Source of the DNA: Hysterangium stoloniferum
Taxonomy: Eukaryota; Basidiomycota; Agaricomycetes; Hysterangiales; Hysterangiaceae
Assembly: GCA_015178975.1 (NCBI GenBank)
Contig: WHVD01000090.1
Coordinates: 186,001-250,000, forward strand
Length of the DNA: 64,000 nt
Direction: 5' to 3'
This document shows positions 22,273-61,312 of this stretch, in pieces. The stretch's first letter is position 1. Each line of letters opens with the position of its first letter. The notes beneath the pieces are model-generated. The model was not told the origin of the DNA and searched no databases. It was given only the letters and a program-made list of their open reading frames with translations. The position numbers and the translations under genes were made by a program.

Positions 22273-25200
22273 TTTTTTTTTTTTTTTTTTGTTATATTTG
22301 TATCCCGCTTCAAGCAACAATGGCTAACTGCGGCTAGGGGGTGGAAAGGCCCCCAGAGAAACTATGCTACGGTGGTAAGACGTTCCGAGTGAGCTTCGTG
22401 GCTACGATGGATTTTAGAGGGCTCGAGTCAGGGTGGGGACGGTGAAAGTCGGCGTACGGAGTTAGATGTAGCTAGAAAGAGAAAAAGAAAAAGAAGACCA
22501 AGAAAGGGATATGTACATCGGCCATGGCGTTCAGGGACGATCTGTTGTGGAGGGATTGTGGGAGAGGTGTGGGGCGAGCGGGGGAGTCGGCGTCGCGACG
22601 GAGCCAGGTGGCTCTAAGGAGGTTCGTAAGGGCGTGGTGCAAAGGCAGAGGTTTGGCAGATAAATTTTGCAACTGCTCTGAGCCCAGACTTTGTACCCAG
22701 CAGAAAGGCCAGGTCAAGACCGCGTGAGACCTTTCGTAGGGGCCCACGCCAGTCTTCGTAAAGGGGGCAACTCGTTAAGATGTGGTCGCGCGTTTGGAGG
22801 GGTGCATACCCACAGGGGCATGCAGTGAGCAGATTGGGGAGGAAGCGGTTGTAGTATTCCCCAAAGAAGCCGTGTCCAAAGATTGCCTGAATGAGGCGAG
22901 TGTGCTGTGCACGGGAACCAGTGAAGCTTTTGTGGATGGCAGCGAGTTTGAGCGAGGGCGGTTTGGTGAGGACGAGAGCGGAAGCATTAGTGTGTGGCTT
23001 GGCCGCCCACTCTTTGCCCCATTCTTTGACTGCGCGGACTTTGGCCCTTTCCCGGGCCCAGGTCATGGTTGAGTGCAGTACTGACCTGGCTGTTGTGGCC
23101 TGTTTGGCTAGTGCGTCAGCGCGTTCATTTCCCTGTATGCCCGTATGTCCTGGGACCCAGGAAACTTCAACATTGATGTAATGGCGGGAGGACAGCAGCG
23201 AATCAACATGCTTGCGAAAAAGCGCGGAGCAGAGCTGGGCTGGATGTGGGGACACATCAAATATTGATGATATAGCAGCCTGATTGTCAACCATAAATGA
23301 GATGTGCGTAACAGTAGGGAGGTGGTCAAGGATGTTGGTGAGGCGGGCAGCAGCACCCGCAAGAGCAAGCATCTCAGCATCGAAGACACTGGCTCTGCGG
23401 CCAAGGCCCCACTGACCTGAGGCAACCTCCATGCCAAGGTGTACTGCCGAGAAACCACACCCCGTCCGTTTATGGCCCTCGGACCGTTTTCTCGACCCAT
23501 CTGTAAATATGACCAACTGGGTTGGATCTGACGAAAGGACTCGAATGCGAGCCTTAATCTGGTTGATGAGCTTCCGACGGTCTTCTTCAGCGGATTGCCT
23601 GGGTGGGAGGACTGAGCTTAATCGGGCGCCCCATGGGTGTTCCCTCTCCCAGGGAGGCGGGACATACGGCAATAGCCTTTCCGACTTGGGACTTGTGAAG
23701 GTCGCCAGACGGTGGATGACTGTTGAAGGTGGGCGTTTTCCTGCATTCTTTTTTGACTGGCGCATGGGTCGGGGTTGCGGTGACAAGAGGGGATCATGTT
23801 CATCCCAACCGGCAGGAAGTCGGGCGAGGACCTGCGATGCGGCTGGAAGGGCCCGGAACCTCGTGGCGGCATTTTGTGACAGGCGCTTCAGGAGTAGGGG
23901 TATAGGAACTATAGCAGCCAGGTGATGCATTTCGGGAATGGGCGTCGTGCGGAAAGCTCCTAAGAGCCACCGTAGCCCAACAGTTTGGGCACGCTCTAGA
24001 GGCTTCATGAGGCCTTTTTGGCGGACGCCTGTGTACCAGATGGCAGAGCCAAAAGTAAGGATGGGAAGCACCACAGTAATATAAAGGAGGCGAGCACTGG
24101 AGACTGACAGGCCTCTGACACAGTTGGCAAGGATTCGCAAACCTGCCACAGCAGAAAGGGCCTTATTTGACACCTCGGTAACGTGCTGCTTAAATATCAG
24201 CCGACTGTCGAACCACAGCCCTAGCCACCTAATAACGGGCCGTGGGGCGACGGTAAATGGTTGCGCATTTGGTGGGTGGATAGAGAGCTGTGGGCCCGAT
24301 GCAAGCACTGCCTTGGAGCGAGCGAAGTGGATTAGGTCTGTCTTGCCCGAATCTATGGAGAGGCCAAGCGCACTAATAGTGGTGAGCAAGGGCCTTAGGG
24401 CCTCATTGAGTAGGTGGATATTGGACTCAAGAGAATGAGAGAAGGCCAACAAGAGCACGTCATCCACATAGGACTTGACATGCGTTCCTGGGGCTACTGC
24501 CGCAAGACGGAGGATGGGCGATGCGTAGATTGTGGATAGAACAGGCGACAGAGGGGACCCTTGCGGAATGCCAACCTCAGCCAGGGGAGTGGGTGGGCCG
24601 ACAAAGCCATCTACCCGGATCATAACGCTCCGCTGACAGAGGAACGACTTAATCCACCCCACAAGTTGGGGAGCGAATCCCATCAGAACTAAGGTACGAA
24701 TAAGGCGGGGGTGGTTTACGTAGTCAAAAAAGCCCTTGATGTCAAGGGAGACTGCTGTAGCAACCAGGCGCGAGCTCCATGCGGCCTGGATATCGTGCGT
24801 GAGCGTGAGACAAGCATCAATAACTGATGATTTATCTCGCCCCCCGAATTGATTGGTCGGGACCAGGTTGAATTTTCCTACCTCAAAGGTGACCCGTTGG
24901 GCCACAAGCTTTTCAAGAAGTTTACTTAGGCATTCGAGGAGGGAGATTGGACGGTAGGAACGTGGGTTAGACATATCTGCCTTCCTAGGTTTTGGGACAA
25001 CGGCAACAATGGCGGTTTTCAGGCGATGTGGGTGGTGTTGATGGACAATGCATCCATTCAGGAGGTTTGTCACCACTACCGGGTTCACCTCAAAAGCCCA
25101 CTTGACAAGCCTCCAGTTAATCCCTGACCCGCCAGGGGCAGAGACATTGGACGTGGAGGATAGAGCGCCCTTGATCTCACTCTGGGTGAAGGGGGGGAAG

Positions 25201-25919
25201 TCACGAGGTAGGAGGGGGGCCGGATCATCAGGCAGGTCAACCTGGGTTGGTGGGGCGGTGGTGGGGAAAAAGGCACGGGCGAAGACCCGGGCCTGCTCCT
25301 CAGGGTGGGTAGCGACTCCGGCATCGGAGCGTATAGGGGGGGTGCGGGTGTGGCGACGTCCTGTGGCCCATTTAGTGAGATTCCATATTTCTGTTGGGGC
25401 CGTGTCTCTAATGATATCGGAGGCCCACTCCCGCTTGGCGGTGCGGATTGTGCCTCTGAACCTACTCCTGGCAACACTTTTGTTCGCTCGAGCGGCAGTT
25501 TGGATGTTGTGGAGGGCCAAATCACAGGCCTCATTCCACCAGGGAGCACGTTGCCTGTGTTTCGTCTTCGGTTTAGGCATGACAGCCTCCGTAGCAGTGA
25601 GCAGTGCATCGAGGAAAGCATCGAAGGCATGGTCAAGCTCTTGGGCGGAGCGCAGGGGAAGGGTGTCGACTGCCGCAAGAAAGGGAGAGACCCGTTCCTC
25701 CCATTGCTTCTTTCTACCCGGGTCAATGCGAAAGCGCTGCTTTTCCGGGACCAGAGGTGGGGCAGCCTGGTCGGCAGAAATGGACCACAAGATGGCATTG
25801 TGGTCAGAATTCAGCGCGAAGTCGTCTCGGCATTCCCAGGACTGGACCAGATCCATCTCCGTGGCAGCGAGGTTCGTGAGTGTGAGGTCGAGGATAGAGT
25901 CCACTTGATTGGCTTGGCG
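22273..25919 (-). mobile_element. 5'-truncated LINE (Tad1/I-like) with target-site duplication
   Basis: A non-LTR retrotransposon read right to left. Its 3' end is a poly-A tail (T run from about 22,271 to 22,290 on the plus strand). The 15-bp flanks 22,258-22,272 and 25,920-25,934 are identical (CACGTGACCTAAATT), the target-site duplication of endonuclease-primed insertion. The 5' end is cut inside the APE endonuclease, as is usual when reverse transcription stops early. The 3' untranslated part covers about 22,291-22,613. Confidence 0.92.
22614..25919 (-). CDS. LINE ORF2: endonuclease end, reverse transcriptase, RNase H, CCHC-type end
   Basis: An open frame of about 1,100 codons without stops; the start is missing because of truncation. 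Seen in order: end of the APE endonuclease (VDSILDLTLTN, then LNSDHNAILW, residues 6-47); reverse transcriptase with YRPISLLECLSKLLEKL, GIPQGSPLSP and SYVDDVLLL (Tyr about 485); RNase H with IFTDGSRKR (about 805), VDNQAAISSIF and SWVPGHTGIQGNERADALA (about 930); and a terminal Cys/His cluster (CPCGYAPLQTRDHILTSC, about 1,035). The presence of RNase H fits the I/Tad1 group. Without the full endonuclease this copy cannot move by itself, although the frame is unbroken, so the insertion is young. Confidence 0.9.
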   Translation of the reverse strand, partial: RQANQVDSILDLTLTNLAATEMDLVQSWECRDDFALNSDHNAILWSISADQAAPPLVPEKQRFRIDPGRKKQWEERVSPFLAAVDTLPLRSAQELDHAFDAFLDALLTATEAVMPKPKTKHRQRAPWWNEACDLALHNIQTAARANKSVARSRFRGTIRTAKREWASDIIRDTAPTEIWNLTKWATGRRHTRTPPIRSDAGVATHPEEQARVFARAFFPTTAPPTQVDLPDDPAPLLPRDFPPFTQSEIKGALSSTSNVSAPGGSGINWRLVKWAFEVNPVVVTNLLNGCIVHQHHPHRLKTAIVAVVPKPRKADMSNPRSYRPISLLECLSKLLEKLVAQRVTFEVGKFNLVPTNQFGGRDKSSVIDACLTLTHDIQAAWSSRLVATAVSLDIKGFFDYVNHPRLIRTLVLMGFAPQLVGWIKSFLCQRSVMIRVDGFVGPPTPLAEVGIPQGSPLSPVLSTIYASPILRLAAVAPGTHVKSYVDDVLLLAFSHSLESNIHLLNEALRPLLTTISALGLSIDSGKTDLIHFARSKAVLASGPQLSIHPPNAQPFTVAPRPVIRWLGLWFDSRLIFKQHVTEVSNKALSAVAGLRILANCVRGLSVSSARLLYITVVLPILTFGSAIWYTGVRQKGLMKPLERAQTVGLRWLLGAFRTTPIPEMHHLAAIVPIPLLLKRLSQNAATRFRALPAASQVLARLPAGWDEHDPLLSPQPRPMRQSKKNAGKRPPSTVIHRLATFTSPKSERLLPYVPPPWEREHPWGARLSSVLPPRQSAEEDRRKLINQIKARIRVLSSDPTQLVIFTDGSRKRSEGHKRTGCGFSAVHLGMEVASGQWGLGRRASVFDAEMLALAGAAARLTNILDHLPTVTHISFMVDNQAAISSIFDVSPHPAQLCSALFRKHVDSLLSSRHYINVEVSWVPGHTGIQGNERADALAKQATTARSVLHSTMTWARERAKVRAVKEWGKEWAAKPHTNASALVLTKPPSLKLAAIHKSFTGSRAQHTRLIQAIFGHGFFGEYYNRFLPNLLTACPCGYAPLQTRDHILTSCPLYEDWRGPLRKVSRGLDLAFLLGTKSGLRAVAKFICQTSAFAPRPYEPP

Positions 25920-25934
25920 CACGTGACCTAAATT
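25920..25934. repeat. LINE target-site duplication, right
   Basis: CACGTGACCTAAATT, the partner of 22,258-22,272. It marks the exact truncation point of the LINE. Confidence 0.9.
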
Positions 25935-30103: not shown

Positions 30104-30179
30104 TTGAGTTCCGTCATATAGCAAATTACCATCATTACATAGTAAGCTGCCATCTTCCATCTTCCATCTACTGTCTTCC

Positions 30180-30307
30180 TGTTAGATTGAGTAATGCTAG
30201 CAGTGCTTCCCAGGGTCAGGTGGTGTAATGGTTAACACCCCTGCTATATATGCAGAAGCCCTGGGTTCAATTCCCAGTCTGGCCATTCATTTTCTACACT
30301 TTTAACA
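30180..30307 (+). repeat. TRIM 5' LTR
   Basis: 128 nt, identical to the 3' LTR; most of its length is the tRNA-like segment. Confidence 0.9.
30214..30285 (+). tRNA. tRNA-like sequence in the TRIM 5' LTR
   Basis: 72 nt that fold as a tRNA: acceptor GGTCAGG with TCTGGCC, D stem GTGT/ACAC, anticodon stem CTGC/GCAG with loop TATATAT, and T stem CTGGG/CCCAG with loop TTCAATT. The Pol III A box (TGGTGTAATGG) and B box (GGTTCAATTCC) are well kept. The anticodon loop lacks the usual U33, so it is probably not a decoding tRNA; it may drive or shape transcription of the element. Confidence 0.75.
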
Positions 30308-30320
30308 GGTTATGGGCCCC
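30308..30320 (+). promoter_or_regulatory. Primer binding site of the TRIM
   Basis: GGTTATGGGCCCC directly after the 5' LTR. Complementary to the anticodon-stem region expected in initiator tRNA-Met (contains CAT), as in copia-type half-tRNA priming. The fungal tRNA itself was not available to compare. Confidence 0.6.
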
Positions 30321-30462
30321 GCTGTGTGCTATAGGGCATGGTTCCTGTGTGTAGAGTGAACAGCTATATTTGTGTGTGGTATAGTGGACAAGTCTGGACA
30401 AAAGAGCCAGAGAGGACTTATATCTGCTTATAGTATAGTTGAGTGCTAGCATTAAGGGAGTG

Positions 30463-30590
30463 TGTTAGATTGAGTAATGCTAGCAGTGCTTCCCAGGGTC
30501 AGGTGGTGTAATGGTTAACACCCCTGCTATATATGCAGAAGCCCTGGGTTCAATTCCCAGTCTGGCCATTCATTTTCTACACTTTTAACA
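30463..30590 (+). repeat. TRIM 3' LTR
   Basis: 128 nt, identical to the 5' LTR; followed at once by the CTTCC target copy. Confidence 0.9.
30497..30568 (+). tRNA. tRNA-like sequence in the TRIM 3' LTR
   Basis: Identical to 30,214-30,285, with the same fold and A and B boxes. Confidence 0.75.
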
Positions 30591-30984
30591 CTTCCATGGG
30601 TGCCAAATCAGTATAATCATGCACCTCAACTATATAGTTATGGAGTAGAGCTGTAACCGTGGTAAACCCATCTTGTACTAAGTATGTACCCGTATACCAC
30701 TCTGCATCAGGCCAACTCCCACGGAGAGAGCCGTCAGATGTTTGTCGCTCATACACGTCATTAGAAGAGGCAGTCTGCAGAAGCGTTACACCCGGCTTTC
30801 CACCGACATCTGTTTCCTCTTCCTCCTCGTCACTGTTCTCATCTACTCACTCACCATCAACAGTCGTTCCGGAACCTGGGAAGATCAAATCTTTCTTAAC
30901 ATTTTTAACGTGCCACCTTTTTCACCACTCTTATAATCTTCTCTCGGGCAGACCTCTTGCAGCACGTGCGGATGTTACCAGAGG

Positions 30985-33291: not shown

Positions 33292-33951
33292 AGAATTTGA
33301 AGGCTGTGGTGAAGGCCAAAAGACCTCTTCTTGCCTGTCAACACATCAAGGCTCGATATGAGTTTGCTATCAAGTACCAGCATTGGACTGAGGAGGACTG
33401 GTTTAGGGTTATCTTCTCAGATGAGACCAAAATCAATCGTTTGGACTCTGATGGGAGGTTGTGGGTATAGAAAAAACCAGGTTCTGCACTCACTCAGCAG
33501 CATATCAATGGAACTATCAAATTTGGAGGGGGGAGTTTAATGATTTGGGGATGTATGACAGCACATGGTGTGGGGTACATGTGCAAGATAGATGGGAGGA
33601 TGGATGGGGAGATGTACAAGGACATATTGGAGGACTATATCTTCAAAACAGTGGAGTATTATGGGATGGACAGGGAAAGGTTTGTCTTCCAGCAGGACAA
33701 TGACCCTAAATACACTTGCAAGTTGGCCAAGGATTGGTTCAAGGACCATCAGGTGGAGGTTTTAGACTGGCCTGCACAGTCTCCAGACCTGAATCCAATA
33801 GAACACTTATGGTGGGAGTTGAAGAGAAGGCTTGGAACATACCCTGAGACACCCAAGAGCATATTGGAGCTCTGGGAGAGAGTGGAGGTGGAATGGGAGG
33901 GTATTCCAAGGGAGAAATGCCTTGAATTGATCAAGAGCATGCCTAGAAGGG
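33291..33951 (+). pseudogene. Tc1/mariner transposase, C-terminal two thirds
   Basis: DDE transposase with all three catalytic acids: Asp in VIFSDETK (about 33,420), Asp in FQQDNDPKYT (about 33,700) and Glu in SPDLNPIEHLW (about 33,800). One in-frame TAG at 33,469 replaces a Trp codon (RLWV-stop-KKPGS); the rest is open to the LTR insertion. The frame continues after the LTR as VAAVLKAKGGYIKY and stop. The DNA-binding N-terminus is absent. Not functional. Confidence 0.85.
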
Positions 33952-34694
33952 TGTTACGACCGTGTTGCAACCCTATTGGTCCCCGAGGTCATCGCCACAC
34001 ATCGACGATTCAAGTCATCGCTCAAGTCACCACATCAGAAACCATCAGCCTCCCGATGCTGACGTATGCTTTCACGATGATCAAACTCCATTTATGCCCA
34101 CGTCAAAATACACTCGTACTATCTGGTTAAACTTTTGATACGTCCCTTTTATTATCATGATCCATTCTATCCTATGTTTCACATATGTCTATATATACCT
34201 GTAACCCTCAAACTATTTCCTTTTCCCGTAATTCTGCTCTCGGTTATTTCTTTGGCCTCCGAACTAATCATATACTTCCCATTCCTAGTCAAGCTTATTG
34301 TTAATACAATTTTCCACCTTTTCTCCTCATTAGTATTTTCTAGACGCCTGTTACTTGTATATGAACCTGCTGTAGTTGTAGTTACTAGGCAATCAGAATA
34401 TCAACTCAGGATACCCTCATACATCTGTAGCAGTCTCATACTAAGGATCCCCTCATCCGCCTTCATGTGCGCTCGCCCACTCTTGGTCACGATCCCTTGG
34501 CCTGACACTCAACTTAACCTTCAGTCCCGATCAGTATCTCGCCAAAAGGAACTCATTAGGATTAGTCTTCGCCCACCTGAAATTTAAGGACACTCAATGG
34601 ACATTTGCGAGGGTGCAGCACATAAGCTGAAGCCAAGTCCTTCCAATTGGTCCCCGTCAGTCCACTGACCTCAGTCAGTTTCCAGTTCTTAACA
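33952..34694 (+). mobile_element. Solo LTR, gypsy-type family 1, copy 1
   Basis: 743 nt from TGTTACGACC to TTCTTAACA. Flanked by AAGGG on both sides (33,947-33,951 and 34,695-34,699), a perfect target duplication. Same family as 52,557-53,301, which ends a gypsy fragment. Left by LTR-LTR recombination. Confidence 0.9.
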
Positions 34695-56958: not shown

Positions 56959-58990
56959 CTATGTAGTATGAGCTCTTACCTTAGTGTGCCCAAAAAAGGT
57001 GTCAAGAGTAGTTTGTTTTGAGTTAATAGAGTCTTCATGGACCAAATGGGCACAAAATTTGTGCAGCAGATGATTCAACTTGGGATTGTCAGATGGACTT
57101 GCCCCATACTTGATTACCAATTGTTCCAGTTGTTTTACCAATTTGATTGTATCATGTTGACTGAGATTGTCAGTTGGGTCTGAATCATCATTGTCAGATT
57201 CATCAATTTCCATGATTTCCCCCTTCTCCACTTGCTGTTCATGTACTACCTGTTGCACAATATCCTTATCTCCACCAGGAAATGCATAGGGAGATTCATC
57301 TCCATTATTTTTTCCCCTCTTCAACAGGGTTGATTAGTTCTTCGACAGTTGGTAATTGACCAAAGATACAGTTCTTTTGATGAAGAATTTTCGTAAAGCT
57401 CCCAAGATTTTCTTCAGCTGTTACAAGCTGGGAAGGACAGAATGCTGGGAGTTTGATGGTGAGCTTGGGCCTTCCACAGACAGCAGACAATGCCTGAATG
57501 GCTTCCTGTGCCTTTGAAACATCACCCTCAGCTTCCATTACAGCTTTAAGAGCTGGATGCCAGTGAGCATCCTTGTACTGATCACTAAGATGCTGAATCA
57601 GTGCCATCTCTGCTTGTGGAAGTGTCATGTCACTGCTTGCAAATCTTCGCAAGATATCCCATGCACCAGGATCAGAAGCCACCTGTGGAGTAGTCTTCTC
57701 AGAGCTGTCTTCAGCAGATGTTGACAATAGCTGTCTGTTATACATAAATGCAAAAAAAATAATTAGTAGCTGCATGAAGAGAGTAAAAAGAATCAACCTT
57801 TGAATTTTAGTGTGGTTCCAACAATGCTGAATGGTCTCAGTCGCTACTGCCTCCCAGGCTGCATCAGCCATTTGCATTCCTTCAAGGAGGTCAATTTTAT
57901 AGATGTCTGGTTCATTTGCCTCATCCAGGTCAATTGCACAACAACAGAAAAGGCCATGGTAATGTGCTTTGAAGCAGCAGATTATTCCTGCATCAAGTGG
58001 CTGCACAAAGGAGGTGAGATTTGGCTTGAAATACTCAATGTGTATGTTTTTTTGGCTGATATTCAATGTAATGACCTGAAAAATTATCAATGACAAGCAA
58101 GATGTGCCGTCCTTCAGCTTGCATCTTCAGGTCAAACTTCTTAATCCATCTGTAGCATTAATTAAGTGCTAGCTCTCAATGTCCTGAGTAAATATGGAGG
58201 GAGGGCTTACTCTTGAAATATTTCAGATGTTATCCATGCCGCTTTGTTGTTCCAATAATTAAAGCCATGATCTCGAGGTGATTTTTTTCCAAAGCAGCAG
58301 GGCTGCTTTGACCTTCCAATGTAAATTGGTGGCATTTTCTCATTGCCATCTACATTGCAAGGAAATCCCAAGGTAATTCAAAACTTGTCTCTTTTCTTTC
58401 CACTCACATGTTTGTCTGACAAGCCACGATCAAAAGGATACCTGGAAATGCATGTGATAATCTCTCATTCAAGAAACAAGAATTACCCACTTTGGAAATA
58501 GACTTGTCTCATCAAAATTCCACCAGTCACAGGGCTTGAATGTTTCCATCAAGCTCTGAAGCCTTTTCTGTTCAGCCTCTACAGCACTGAGATCTACAGA
58601 GCCAGCCTCCCCATGTTGCCAGTATTCCTTGAGCTTATAGGTTGCACAAAAGGAAGGGATCCACCCATCACCAGTGAGTTGTTGATCATCAGGCACATCA
58701 AATAAAATCTCAAAATGCTTGCACTTTTCATGCAACATGGGTCCACTAACAGTCTCATTCTTCTCCAGCATATGATTGACCCATAGAACCAATGCACGCT
58801 CAATGTCAGGTCGAGTGACAATGCATGCACACTTTGAAGATAATGCAGTTGGGTTAGATTGCCTGCATTCTTCAAGTGTTGGACATTTGCTGATGGCTCG
58901 AGAGAGTGCTGATTGGGAAAAATGTAAAGCACCATCAATCTTGGTCTTGAAATGGTTGACAATGTCTCCTTGTGAAAGTGGGAATATTAC
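56959..58990 (-). pseudogene. pogo/Tigger-type DDE transposase, decayed
   Basis: Minus-strand gene with introns. Seen in order: DNA-binding part (GALHFSQSALSRAISKCPTL); CENP-B-like region RALVLWVNHMLEKNETVSGP; WWNFDETSLFPKW with the first catalytic Asp (about 58,510); DKHVSGKKRDKF, TGA, then FPCNVDGNEKMPPIYIG; ILLVIDNFSGH with the second Asp (about 58,095); TSFVQPLDAGII and KAHYHGLF (third acid region); then an acidic, helical tail ending TTLDTFFGHTKVRAHTT (56,959). The stop after DKF replaces a Trp codon, and one splice join is out of phase. Nearly full length but dead. Confidence 0.8.
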
Positions 58991-59049: not shown

Positions 59050-61312
59050 AGTCCGCAAGAAAATCTGAATAATCGATGCCCCGAGGGAAGATACTCGGAG
59101 GAACCAGGTATGTCGTGCGTCATGCTTTACGATCATCATGCTGTAAATATAGACCAAATTAACCGTTATCAAGTTCGCTCAACGCGTGTATTTACCACCA
59201 TTGCTCTCCCGAAGGTTATACTACATCATTCATTTACCAACGTTTTACCCCGCATTGCCTGAGATTACTTTACAGATTTTAATTCTTGGGCTGAAAATGG
59301 TGCAGAAGGTTGGAGTTATGACGAACTTCATCCGTATGTGTCTTGTACATTACTGATGCCAAAAACTGACAGATAATGTGTTCGTAGCTATTTCATGAAG
59401 TCTGAAGGATATACCGCCAGTCCATCAAAACCCGACGTAAAGCTGAAATATCATGGTTGTAATGGCCCTTGGAAAACTAGCGAACCGAATGTCGCTGTAC
59501 GATTTTAGATATTTTCGTCTGATTGCAAGCTGTTATCTGATTCCAGAATTATATAGCCTCTACACTATGTTATTATGGAAGCCTGTGCAGCATTGGGCAT
59601 ACCGTGGAGCCCGCAAGCAGTAGTAGCAGAGTTCAGACTTGAAATTATACTTTCCTGTACAGAGACTTGAACACGCCAAATGGAACCCTGGGCGCGAGCG
59701 CTTTTACCGGCTTCGTTGATAAAAAAAGGCCGCCGTATGTCGCCCTATAATTTCTTTCCCAAGCTGTCACATTACATTTTTATAGGAAACTCTTCCGCAA
59801 CTGCATAATCTTACTCCTGATGTCCTCTCAAGACGGAATCTCACAATTATAGTGAAGTCACGTGTCGACAAGATACCAATACCGCCATCTCACGGCCCAG
59901 GCGATCGGTGTTGAATTCTCCCATGCCCGCAACTCGCCTCGGTATCGTGCTCATTCCAGGAAGGAAGTCATCATTTGTGCTGGGGCTTTCAATACCCCAC
60001 AAGTCTTGCTTTTATCTGGGAACGGGCCGGCTGCAGACTTAGAAGAAAAGGGAATTGAAGTTATAAGGATCACCCTGCTGTTGGCCAGAATCTCTTTGAC
60101 GTCAGTCTTCTTTCAAGCGTTCTTTTTGGGAATTTTAAACGGACTCATTCTGATACATCATAACCAGCATCAATCGTGTGGGACGTTATGTGTACGGACC
60201 AAGGCAGCATTTAGCTGGGATCACATTGCAAAGCCTTTATCGGGAGTGTTTGCGTTGGTTAAATGGCTTTTAAAACATAAAGGTCCATTGACAAGCTTAC
60301 CGTGCCAGGGAGGGGCGTTCTTCAGGTCGGATAATCCATCGTATGTACCAGTTCATAACCGCGATTTTTTGCACATGTGACATTGTGATCATACGTTTCT
60401 CATCTAATAATAGGACATATTTTGAATCCAACAAGAACAAAGGTGATCAAGACATCCAGATCGCTGGTTTGACTTCGGGTCCCAAGTCACCAGATATCGA
60501 ATTCATGTGGTGTATGATTCTCCCCGAGTTACATCCCCAAAACTGGTACACTGACATCATTCTAGTTCCAGTTTTAGCGATCAACAACGGGTTTTCAGCG
60601 GCCCCAGCAAACGTGCAGGGCATGACAATCGTAAGGTTTCATTAACAGACTGGATATTGAACTTCACCTTGTACACAGAGCGCACTTGCGCTGAAACCCG
60701 AGAGCGCAGGTCAGGTTTTTTTGAAAACGACCAGTGTCTGGGATAAACCTATAATCCACTCGAAGTAGGTCCGAGGGTTTCAGCGTCCCGTGTCACCGTT
60801 GACGTTTAAATCTTTGCAGCTTCTTCTCGTCAGAGAACGACATGAAGCTCATCATACGTGCTACACGGCTTCTCCTGAAACTAATCAAGACTGAGCCTCT
60901 TGCCTCCATTGTGGAGTCGACACCTCCTGGCATATCTTATGACTTTTATGGCCAGGGAATGTCTCTGACCCTGACGAAGTAATTATGCCATAATAGTATC
61001 AAATATACCATCTCATCGTTTTAGATTACCGATGAACAGCTACGTGAATGGATCTGTAGAAATATGTCTCCTGCCTTCCATCCGGTACGTCGTGCATGCC
61101 CGAAAATTAACTTATTATATTCACTCACTACTTCTTCCAAAGACATCCTCCGCCAGAATGGGAATATCCGAAAAATCCAGTGTTATCGATTCGAAGTTAT
61201 GCGTTCACGGTGTTGATGGGCTACGCGTTGTGGACGCGTCTGCCTTCCCAACGCAGGTATCGAGACATCCATGTGCGGTGGTAATTGCCATGGCCGAGAG
61301 GGCTGCAGATTG
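59050..61312 (+). pseudogene. GMC oxidoreductase gene, 5' truncated and broken
   Basis: Flavoenzyme of the glucose-methanol-choline family (aryl-alcohol oxidase or choline-dehydrogenase-like). Begins at the conserved PRGKILGGT (about 59,075), so the FAD-binding start is missing. Then FNSWAENGAEGWSYDELHPY, LNTPNGTLGASAF, AIGVEFSHARNSPRYRAH, VIICAGAFNTPQVLLLSGNG (family signature, about 59,970), LPELHPQNW, FLKTTSVWDKPIIHSK, and the end HGVDGLRVVDASAFPTQVS to MAERAAD, stop at 61,312. Several short introns can be drawn, but frame breaks remain and the catalytic HPVGT region is garbled. The 5' side borders the pogo element. Confidence 0.8.

Follow-up and report, generated by a model that had tools for sequence, protein, structure and literature searches.

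The 64,000-nt stretch of the Hysterangium stoloniferum genome analysed here (the window; C545:186001-250000 of the 111-Mb assembly of 554 contigs that was searched) contains a genuine, recently moving miniature LTR retrotransposon, most of whose LTR resembles a tRNA. With a probability of roughly 0.8, this copy is a young Helenus-type TRIM, a non-coding LTR retrotransposon using Copia-type machinery; its family is referred to below as H1. The layout of 128 + 155 + 128 nt, with short LTRs on either side of a small non-coding middle, is that of a TRIM (Table 1). The initial annotation had described identical LTRs, a perfect target duplication and a purine tract, and all of them are present as described. 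Its assignment of the element to the TRIMs is likewise upheld by the anatomy of the LTRs, the non-coding middle and the presence of many copies in the genome.

Table 1. Anatomy of the H1 copy in the window (positions are those of the window)
Feature	Position	Strand	Basis or remark
Left target-site duplication, CTTCC	30175..30179	.	Read from sequence
5' LTR, 128 nt, TGTTA...TTTTAACA	30180..30307	+	100 % identical to 30463-30590
tRNA-like segment, 5' LTR	30214..30285	+	ARAGORN; RF00005, 49.2 bits; cloverleaf fold
A box of 5' LTR tRNA-like segment	30221..30231	+	Placed by eye
B box of 5' LTR tRNA-like segment	30264..30274	+	Placed by eye
TTTT 3' of tRNA-like segment, putative weak Pol III stop	30290..30293	+	Role inferred
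TTTT at LTR end (TTTTAACA)	30300..30303	+	LTR ends of Copia families in this genome share TTTT
Primer-binding site, GGTTATGGGCCCCGC	30308..30322	+	Complements initiator tRNA-Met positions 26-40
Internal region, 155 nt	30308..30462	+	Well below the length of gag or pol
Polypurine tract, AAGGGAG	30454..30460	+	Read from sequence
3' LTR, 128 nt	30463..30590	+	No difference from 5' LTR
tRNA-like segment, 3' LTR	30497..30568	+	ARAGORN; RF00005
Right target-site duplication, CTTCC	30591..30595	.	Read from sequence

The initial annotation had claimed, from the sequence alone, a tRNA-like segment with A and B boxes in the LTR, and two programs now confirm the tRNA. ARAGORN and Rfam agree on a tRNA in both LTRs, and in a search of the window the covariance model RF00005 scores the segment well above its gathering score of 29 bits (E 1.7e-7). 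At gathering score, tRNA was the sole Rfam family matched within the window; the segment is thus tRNA-like and not 5S rRNA, and membership in Cassandra can be rejected. Folded alone, the segment adopts a cloverleaf of -27.3 kcal/mol (z -2.36), which 1 of 200 shuffled sequences equals, while the fold of the whole H1 LTR is not exceptional against shuffles (z -1.37). The tRNA model is also matched, at 45.7-52.9 bits, by an H1 subfamily whose anticodon position reads TGT and by the LTR of loci L032/L092. The position preceding the anticodon (position 33) is U in tRNAs. Because the segment in the window has an A there, and because Rfam flags one non-standard pair in it, a role as a working, decoding tRNA appears unlikely.

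H1 is a multi-copy family. A search with the element, in which 40 of 512 candidates were scored, returned at least 45 matches, and at least 43 of these span its full length. The first 21 bases of the LTR have 153 exact matches in the genome, the start of the internal region has 80 at up to three mismatches, and a pattern joining the LTR end to the primer-binding site finds 91 sites at up to two mismatches, seven of them with an LTR end like that of a second family, H2; the reversed control gave 0 in each case. The initial annotation had called for such a count and had regarded an only copy in the genome as grounds for doubt; a single chance copy is ruled out by the numbers of LTR 5' ends and internal starts against their controls. 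Exact 5-bp duplications flank 29 of the 34 distinct copies read, be they full, solo or rearranged (14 of the 16 that retain internal sequence, 15 of the 18 that are solo LTRs), and mismatched pairs of flanks agreed in 1 of 1,122 cases. Among the 30 loci retrieved through the 5' end of the LTR, 18 are solo LTRs, and tandem copies occur at L025 and L068.

The recent movement suspected earlier is borne out by LTR pairs without any difference in 10 of the 16 copies that have internal sequence, eight of these ten having been chosen as the best matches to the window copy, which is itself included. Two further copies have one difference between their LTRs, and in the remaining four the count is distorted by indels, truncation or rearrangement. 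In one subfamily (27 of the 91 sites) TTAT replaces the first TTTT, and this subfamily too has copies with identical LTRs (L008, L011 and L012). Compared by eye, 12 of the 80 internal starts lack an H1 LTR end where one would be expected; three of them (on C24, C58 and C290) have the LTR end of another family, F4, and the other nine may represent old LTRs or other chimeras. At C520:241364-241832, three sites joining the H1 LTR end to the primer-binding site lie 220 bases apart, compared to the usual unit of 283 bases, and form a putative tandem array in which the H1 unit is shortened.

The copia-like primer site of the initial annotation is confirmed by the complementarity of its 15 nt to the anticodon arm of the host initiator tRNA-Met. 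A 35-base pattern for this tRNA (anticodon arm CGGGGCCCATAACCCCG) has three perfect matches in the genome and none in the control; the matches cover the D arm and the anticodon arm. The anticodon-arm pattern alone gave 9 matches at up to two mismatches against 6 in the control; of these, use was made of the three exact ones, which the 35-base pattern confirms. Priming from the anticodon region is known in Drosophila copia and Ty5 (PMC10886601).

The primer site is shared with larger elements. The 19-mer TTTTAACAGGTTATGGGCC has 179 exact sites in the genome, some of which lie outside H1. Copia gag and/or Pol_BBD domains were identified in four LTR families (F1, F2, F3 and F5) that have the LTR end and primer site of H1. 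F4 is a long family as well, but in the ~1.5 kb of it that was read there is no gag frame, long frame or Copia domain, and one of its frames gave no match against Pfam. H2 is a second Helenus-like family, with a 251-nt LTR and an internal region of 66-67 nt; the tRNA-like segment of its LTR scores 48.6 bits and folds no better than shuffled sequences (z -0.30). The LTRs of F2-F5 have in common a motif like AGTCYGTTATA...GACTGAG some 50-80 bases before the LTR end, found by eye upstream of the primer site in L010, L015, L019, L027 and L066; it is perhaps a common R-region hairpin. Between ~266,677 and 277,923 on C543, F1 LTR/primer sites on the plus strand recur every 5,414 bases (267065, 272479 and 277893), each preceded at 388 bases by an H2 LTR end on the minus strand, an arrangement that looks like a tandem array of a Copia element carrying an H2 copy.

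Miniature and larger elements are also found joined to each other at the primer site. In 98 loci, selected with search patterns for H1, for F1 and for the common 19-mer, junctions at AACAGGTTATGGGCC (up to two substitutions, with enough sequence on both sides) were sorted by the family of the 60 bases on each side. The 67 distinct LTR/primer-site junctions comprise 54 concordant and 11 discordant ones and two under the score threshold; given the choice of loci, 11/67 is not a genome rate. Four discordant junctions, in L028 and L066, combine H1 with F4, and seven, in L033, L036, L081, L085 and L097, combine H2 with the Copia family F1. L066 reads [F4 LTR][H1 internal][H1 LTR][F4 internal]. L028 is rearranged, an F4 LTR running into H1 on one strand and an H1 LTR into F4 on the opposite strand. 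L028, L032 and L034/L035 contain inverted arrangements of LTR and internal sequence that resemble products of autointegration of LTR cDNA.

Target duplications are exact at three of the five H2-F1 loci and established at none of the H1-F4 loci. They are clear at L033 (ACGCG) and L085 (AAAGA), where they flank elements with two unrelated LTRs, and weak at L097, where CTGTC, although exact, sits in a tract of the F1 LTR rich in that motif. L081 has no duplication, and L036 continues into Copia sequence. Sabot and Schulman (PMC1950507) use flanking duplications as the criterion for one integration event. Because duplications are clear at two of the five loci and weakly present at one, some chimeras were probably inserted as ready-made recombinants. 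Chimeras joined at the primer site would imply that two templates were present in common particles, and those between H2 and F1 support a mobilisation of H2 by Copia.

Coordinates alone point to a few further cases: an F4-H1 junction at C290:484584, an apparent F1-H2 unit at C259:33650 and 33332 (318 bases apart, like L036), and an apparent F4 element holding an H2-like unit at C543:56721-57088. In the latter F4 appears joined to an H2-like LTR; F4 is therefore not exclusive to H1, and partner specificity is not strict. A comparison of coordinates finds no position shared by the 79 LTR/primer sites of F1 and the 80 internal starts of H1. The chimera partner observed for H1 is F4, in which the ~1.5 kb read contains no coding frame.

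These observations can be combined into a mechanistic proposal, whose most far-reaching form we hold tentatively, giving it rather less than an even chance. In that form, the tRNA-like gene would serve as promoter and as R repeat, each Helenus family would ride the particles of particular larger LTR families (F4 plus a helper for H1, Copia F1 for H2), the half-tRNA primer site would be the meeting point, and the chimeras would be the record of particle sharing. In the preferred reading, too, Pol III would initiate at the tRNA-like promoter in the 5' LTR, pass the weak TTTT signals there and stop once past the tRNA-like segment in the 3' LTR; that segment could then double as the R repeat in the first strand jump. 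Both the Pol III transcription and the role as R are putative, and read-through must be assumed because TTTT runs occur also in the 5' LTR. The absence of TTTT from the internal region and U3 agrees with the proposal but is not significant, as 74 % and 68 % of dinucleotide shuffles also lack it. The parallel is Cassandra, which is transcribed from the 5S sequence of its 5' LTR to that of its 3' LTR (PMC10886601).

The Helenus RNA would then be packaged in Copia particles and its cDNA primed by half of an initiator tRNA-Met, and the TGTTA...TTTTAACA ends would be taken by Copia integrase, giving the 5-bp duplication. With two cDNAs in one particle, the plus-strand strong-stop DNA of one could pair with the primer site of the other. 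A single inter-element second-strand transfer is expected to yield [LTR of A][PBS, internal and LTR of B], while a double transfer would yield [LTR of A][internal of B][LTR of B][internal of A], the order found in L066 and L036.

A rival reading is a Pol II-transcribed TRIM whose tRNA-like segment is a passenger left by an old tRNA or SINE insertion and has no present role. The A at position 33 and the non-standard pair, which speak against a decoding tRNA, are compatible with such a passenger, as are the AT-rich, TATA-like sequence upstream of the segment in H2 and the unremarkable fold of the latter. Moreover, TTTT and TTAT variants both occur among the copies with identical LTRs, and the first TTTT is therefore dispensable. 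However, the H1 LTR provides just 34 nt upstream of the segment, and the other tRNA-bearing LTR variants have kept the scores with the tRNA model given above. We consider a mere passenger unlikely. Marginally less probable still is that the chimeras arose by recombination between neighbouring genomic insertions, or by autointegration, rather than from co-packaged cDNAs. The H2-F1 loci without a duplication, the continuation of L036 into Copia sequence, the repeat-rich tract around the duplication of L097 and the autointegration-like arrangements at L028, L032 and L034 fit such an origin, whereas the exact duplications of L033 and L085 argue, by the criterion cited above (PMC1950507), for a single integration of an element that was already chimeric.

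It is highly improbable that the sequence is a SINE or the product of a chance duplication of an ordinary tRNA gene, even though both ARAGORN and Rfam call the segment a tRNA. SINEs have no LTRs, insert by the LINE-type route and make duplications of variable length, which is contradicted here by the LTRs, the primer site and the fixed 5-bp duplications; copies with duplications at their LTR ends equally refute a plain tRNA gene, and the purine tract, the solo LTRs and A33 point the same way. The preferred reading remains a Helenus-type TRIM that would use Copia-type machinery.

Dasheng and RIRE2 of rice exemplify a non-autonomous LTR family and a proposed autonomous partner that are linked by little else than their LTR ends and primer site. 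In wheat, RLG_Wilma similarly has little in common with its proposed autonomous partners, RLG_Sabrina and RLG_WHAM, beyond LTR ends and primer site, and differs from H1 in that no Pol III gene in its LTR is mentioned where PMC9744471 describes it. TRIMs with tRNA-derived LTR sequence have been named Helenus and proposed as the group TRIMp3 (Kojima 2024, PMC10886601); they were described there from rust fungi (113 families) and a few Agaricomycetes as well as from animals and one plant. According to this source they are elements of a few hundred bp with tRNA-derived A and B boxes in the LTR, solo LTRs and several families per genome. The fungal ones have 5-bp duplications and a primer site directed to a tRNA anticodon loop, mostly that of iMet, and are tied to Copia by primer-site and internal similarity; the tRNA is probably non-working and mobilisation by Copia is inferred. 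H1 shows the TRIM layout, the tRNA with A and B boxes, the primer-binding site, the purine tract, the 5-bp duplications and the site for the iMet anticodon region, and is a new family of the Helenus kind, placed by these structural features.

The tRNA-bearing “SINE-like LTR element” of the initial annotation is thus real, although its kind already had a name. The parallel drawn with Cassandra has fared similarly: a tRNA counterpart is independently confirmed but, Helenus having been described in 2024, it is no new class. Cassandra, a plant TRIM, resembles H1 in having a Pol III-type gene in the LTR of a non-coding element and in forming tandem arrays (PMC7215508, PMC10886601); it differs by the 5S rRNA that takes the place of the tRNA-like sequence.

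What is added here are the primer-site chimeras with larger LTR families in the H. stoloniferum genome, which hint at the larger elements with which the miniatures may share copying machinery. The terms “chimer” and “template switch” are absent from the main text of PMC10886601, and a literature search, with most subscription papers outside its scope, found no earlier report of Helenus-Copia chimeras. A parallel is provided by the template-switch LTR elements of the Triticeae, which are complex, have a single set of 5-bp duplications and have been attributed to co-packaged templates (PMC1950507). Their outer LTRs resemble each other and their parents are related, whereas the outer LTRs of L033 and L085 come from unrelated families, joined at the primer site. 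How the dependence of TRIMs on a helper is maintained is stated as not known in PMC10886601; primer-site chimeras with a target duplication offer a genome-only test of whether a TRIM and a larger family share particles, and several such pairs are available here. Recognising these elements also matters for annotation, since Helenus inflates the predicted tRNA gene counts of rust fungi (PMC10886601, Table 2).

The ORFs of the window that were tried gave matches solely to transposase, reverse transcriptase, RNase H and GMC oxidoreductase. A 1,102-aa ORF at 22614-25922 (minus strand) with reverse transcriptase and RNase H domains is, judged by its layout, probably a retrotransposon of the non-LTR type. 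Two DDE transposase fragments, DDE_3 and DDE_1, are found at 33540-34130 (plus strand) and 57305-58096 (minus strand), and an exon-like ORF matching GMC oxidoreductase lies at 59862-60380 (plus strand). Elsewhere in the genome, the region ~913,500-1,219,100 of C112 contains 24 of the 62 tRNA matches listed (63 of 5,384 RF00005 candidates scored); they are mostly ~95 nt long and lie on both strands, and probably form a large tRNA-gene cluster or a repeat-borne tRNA array.
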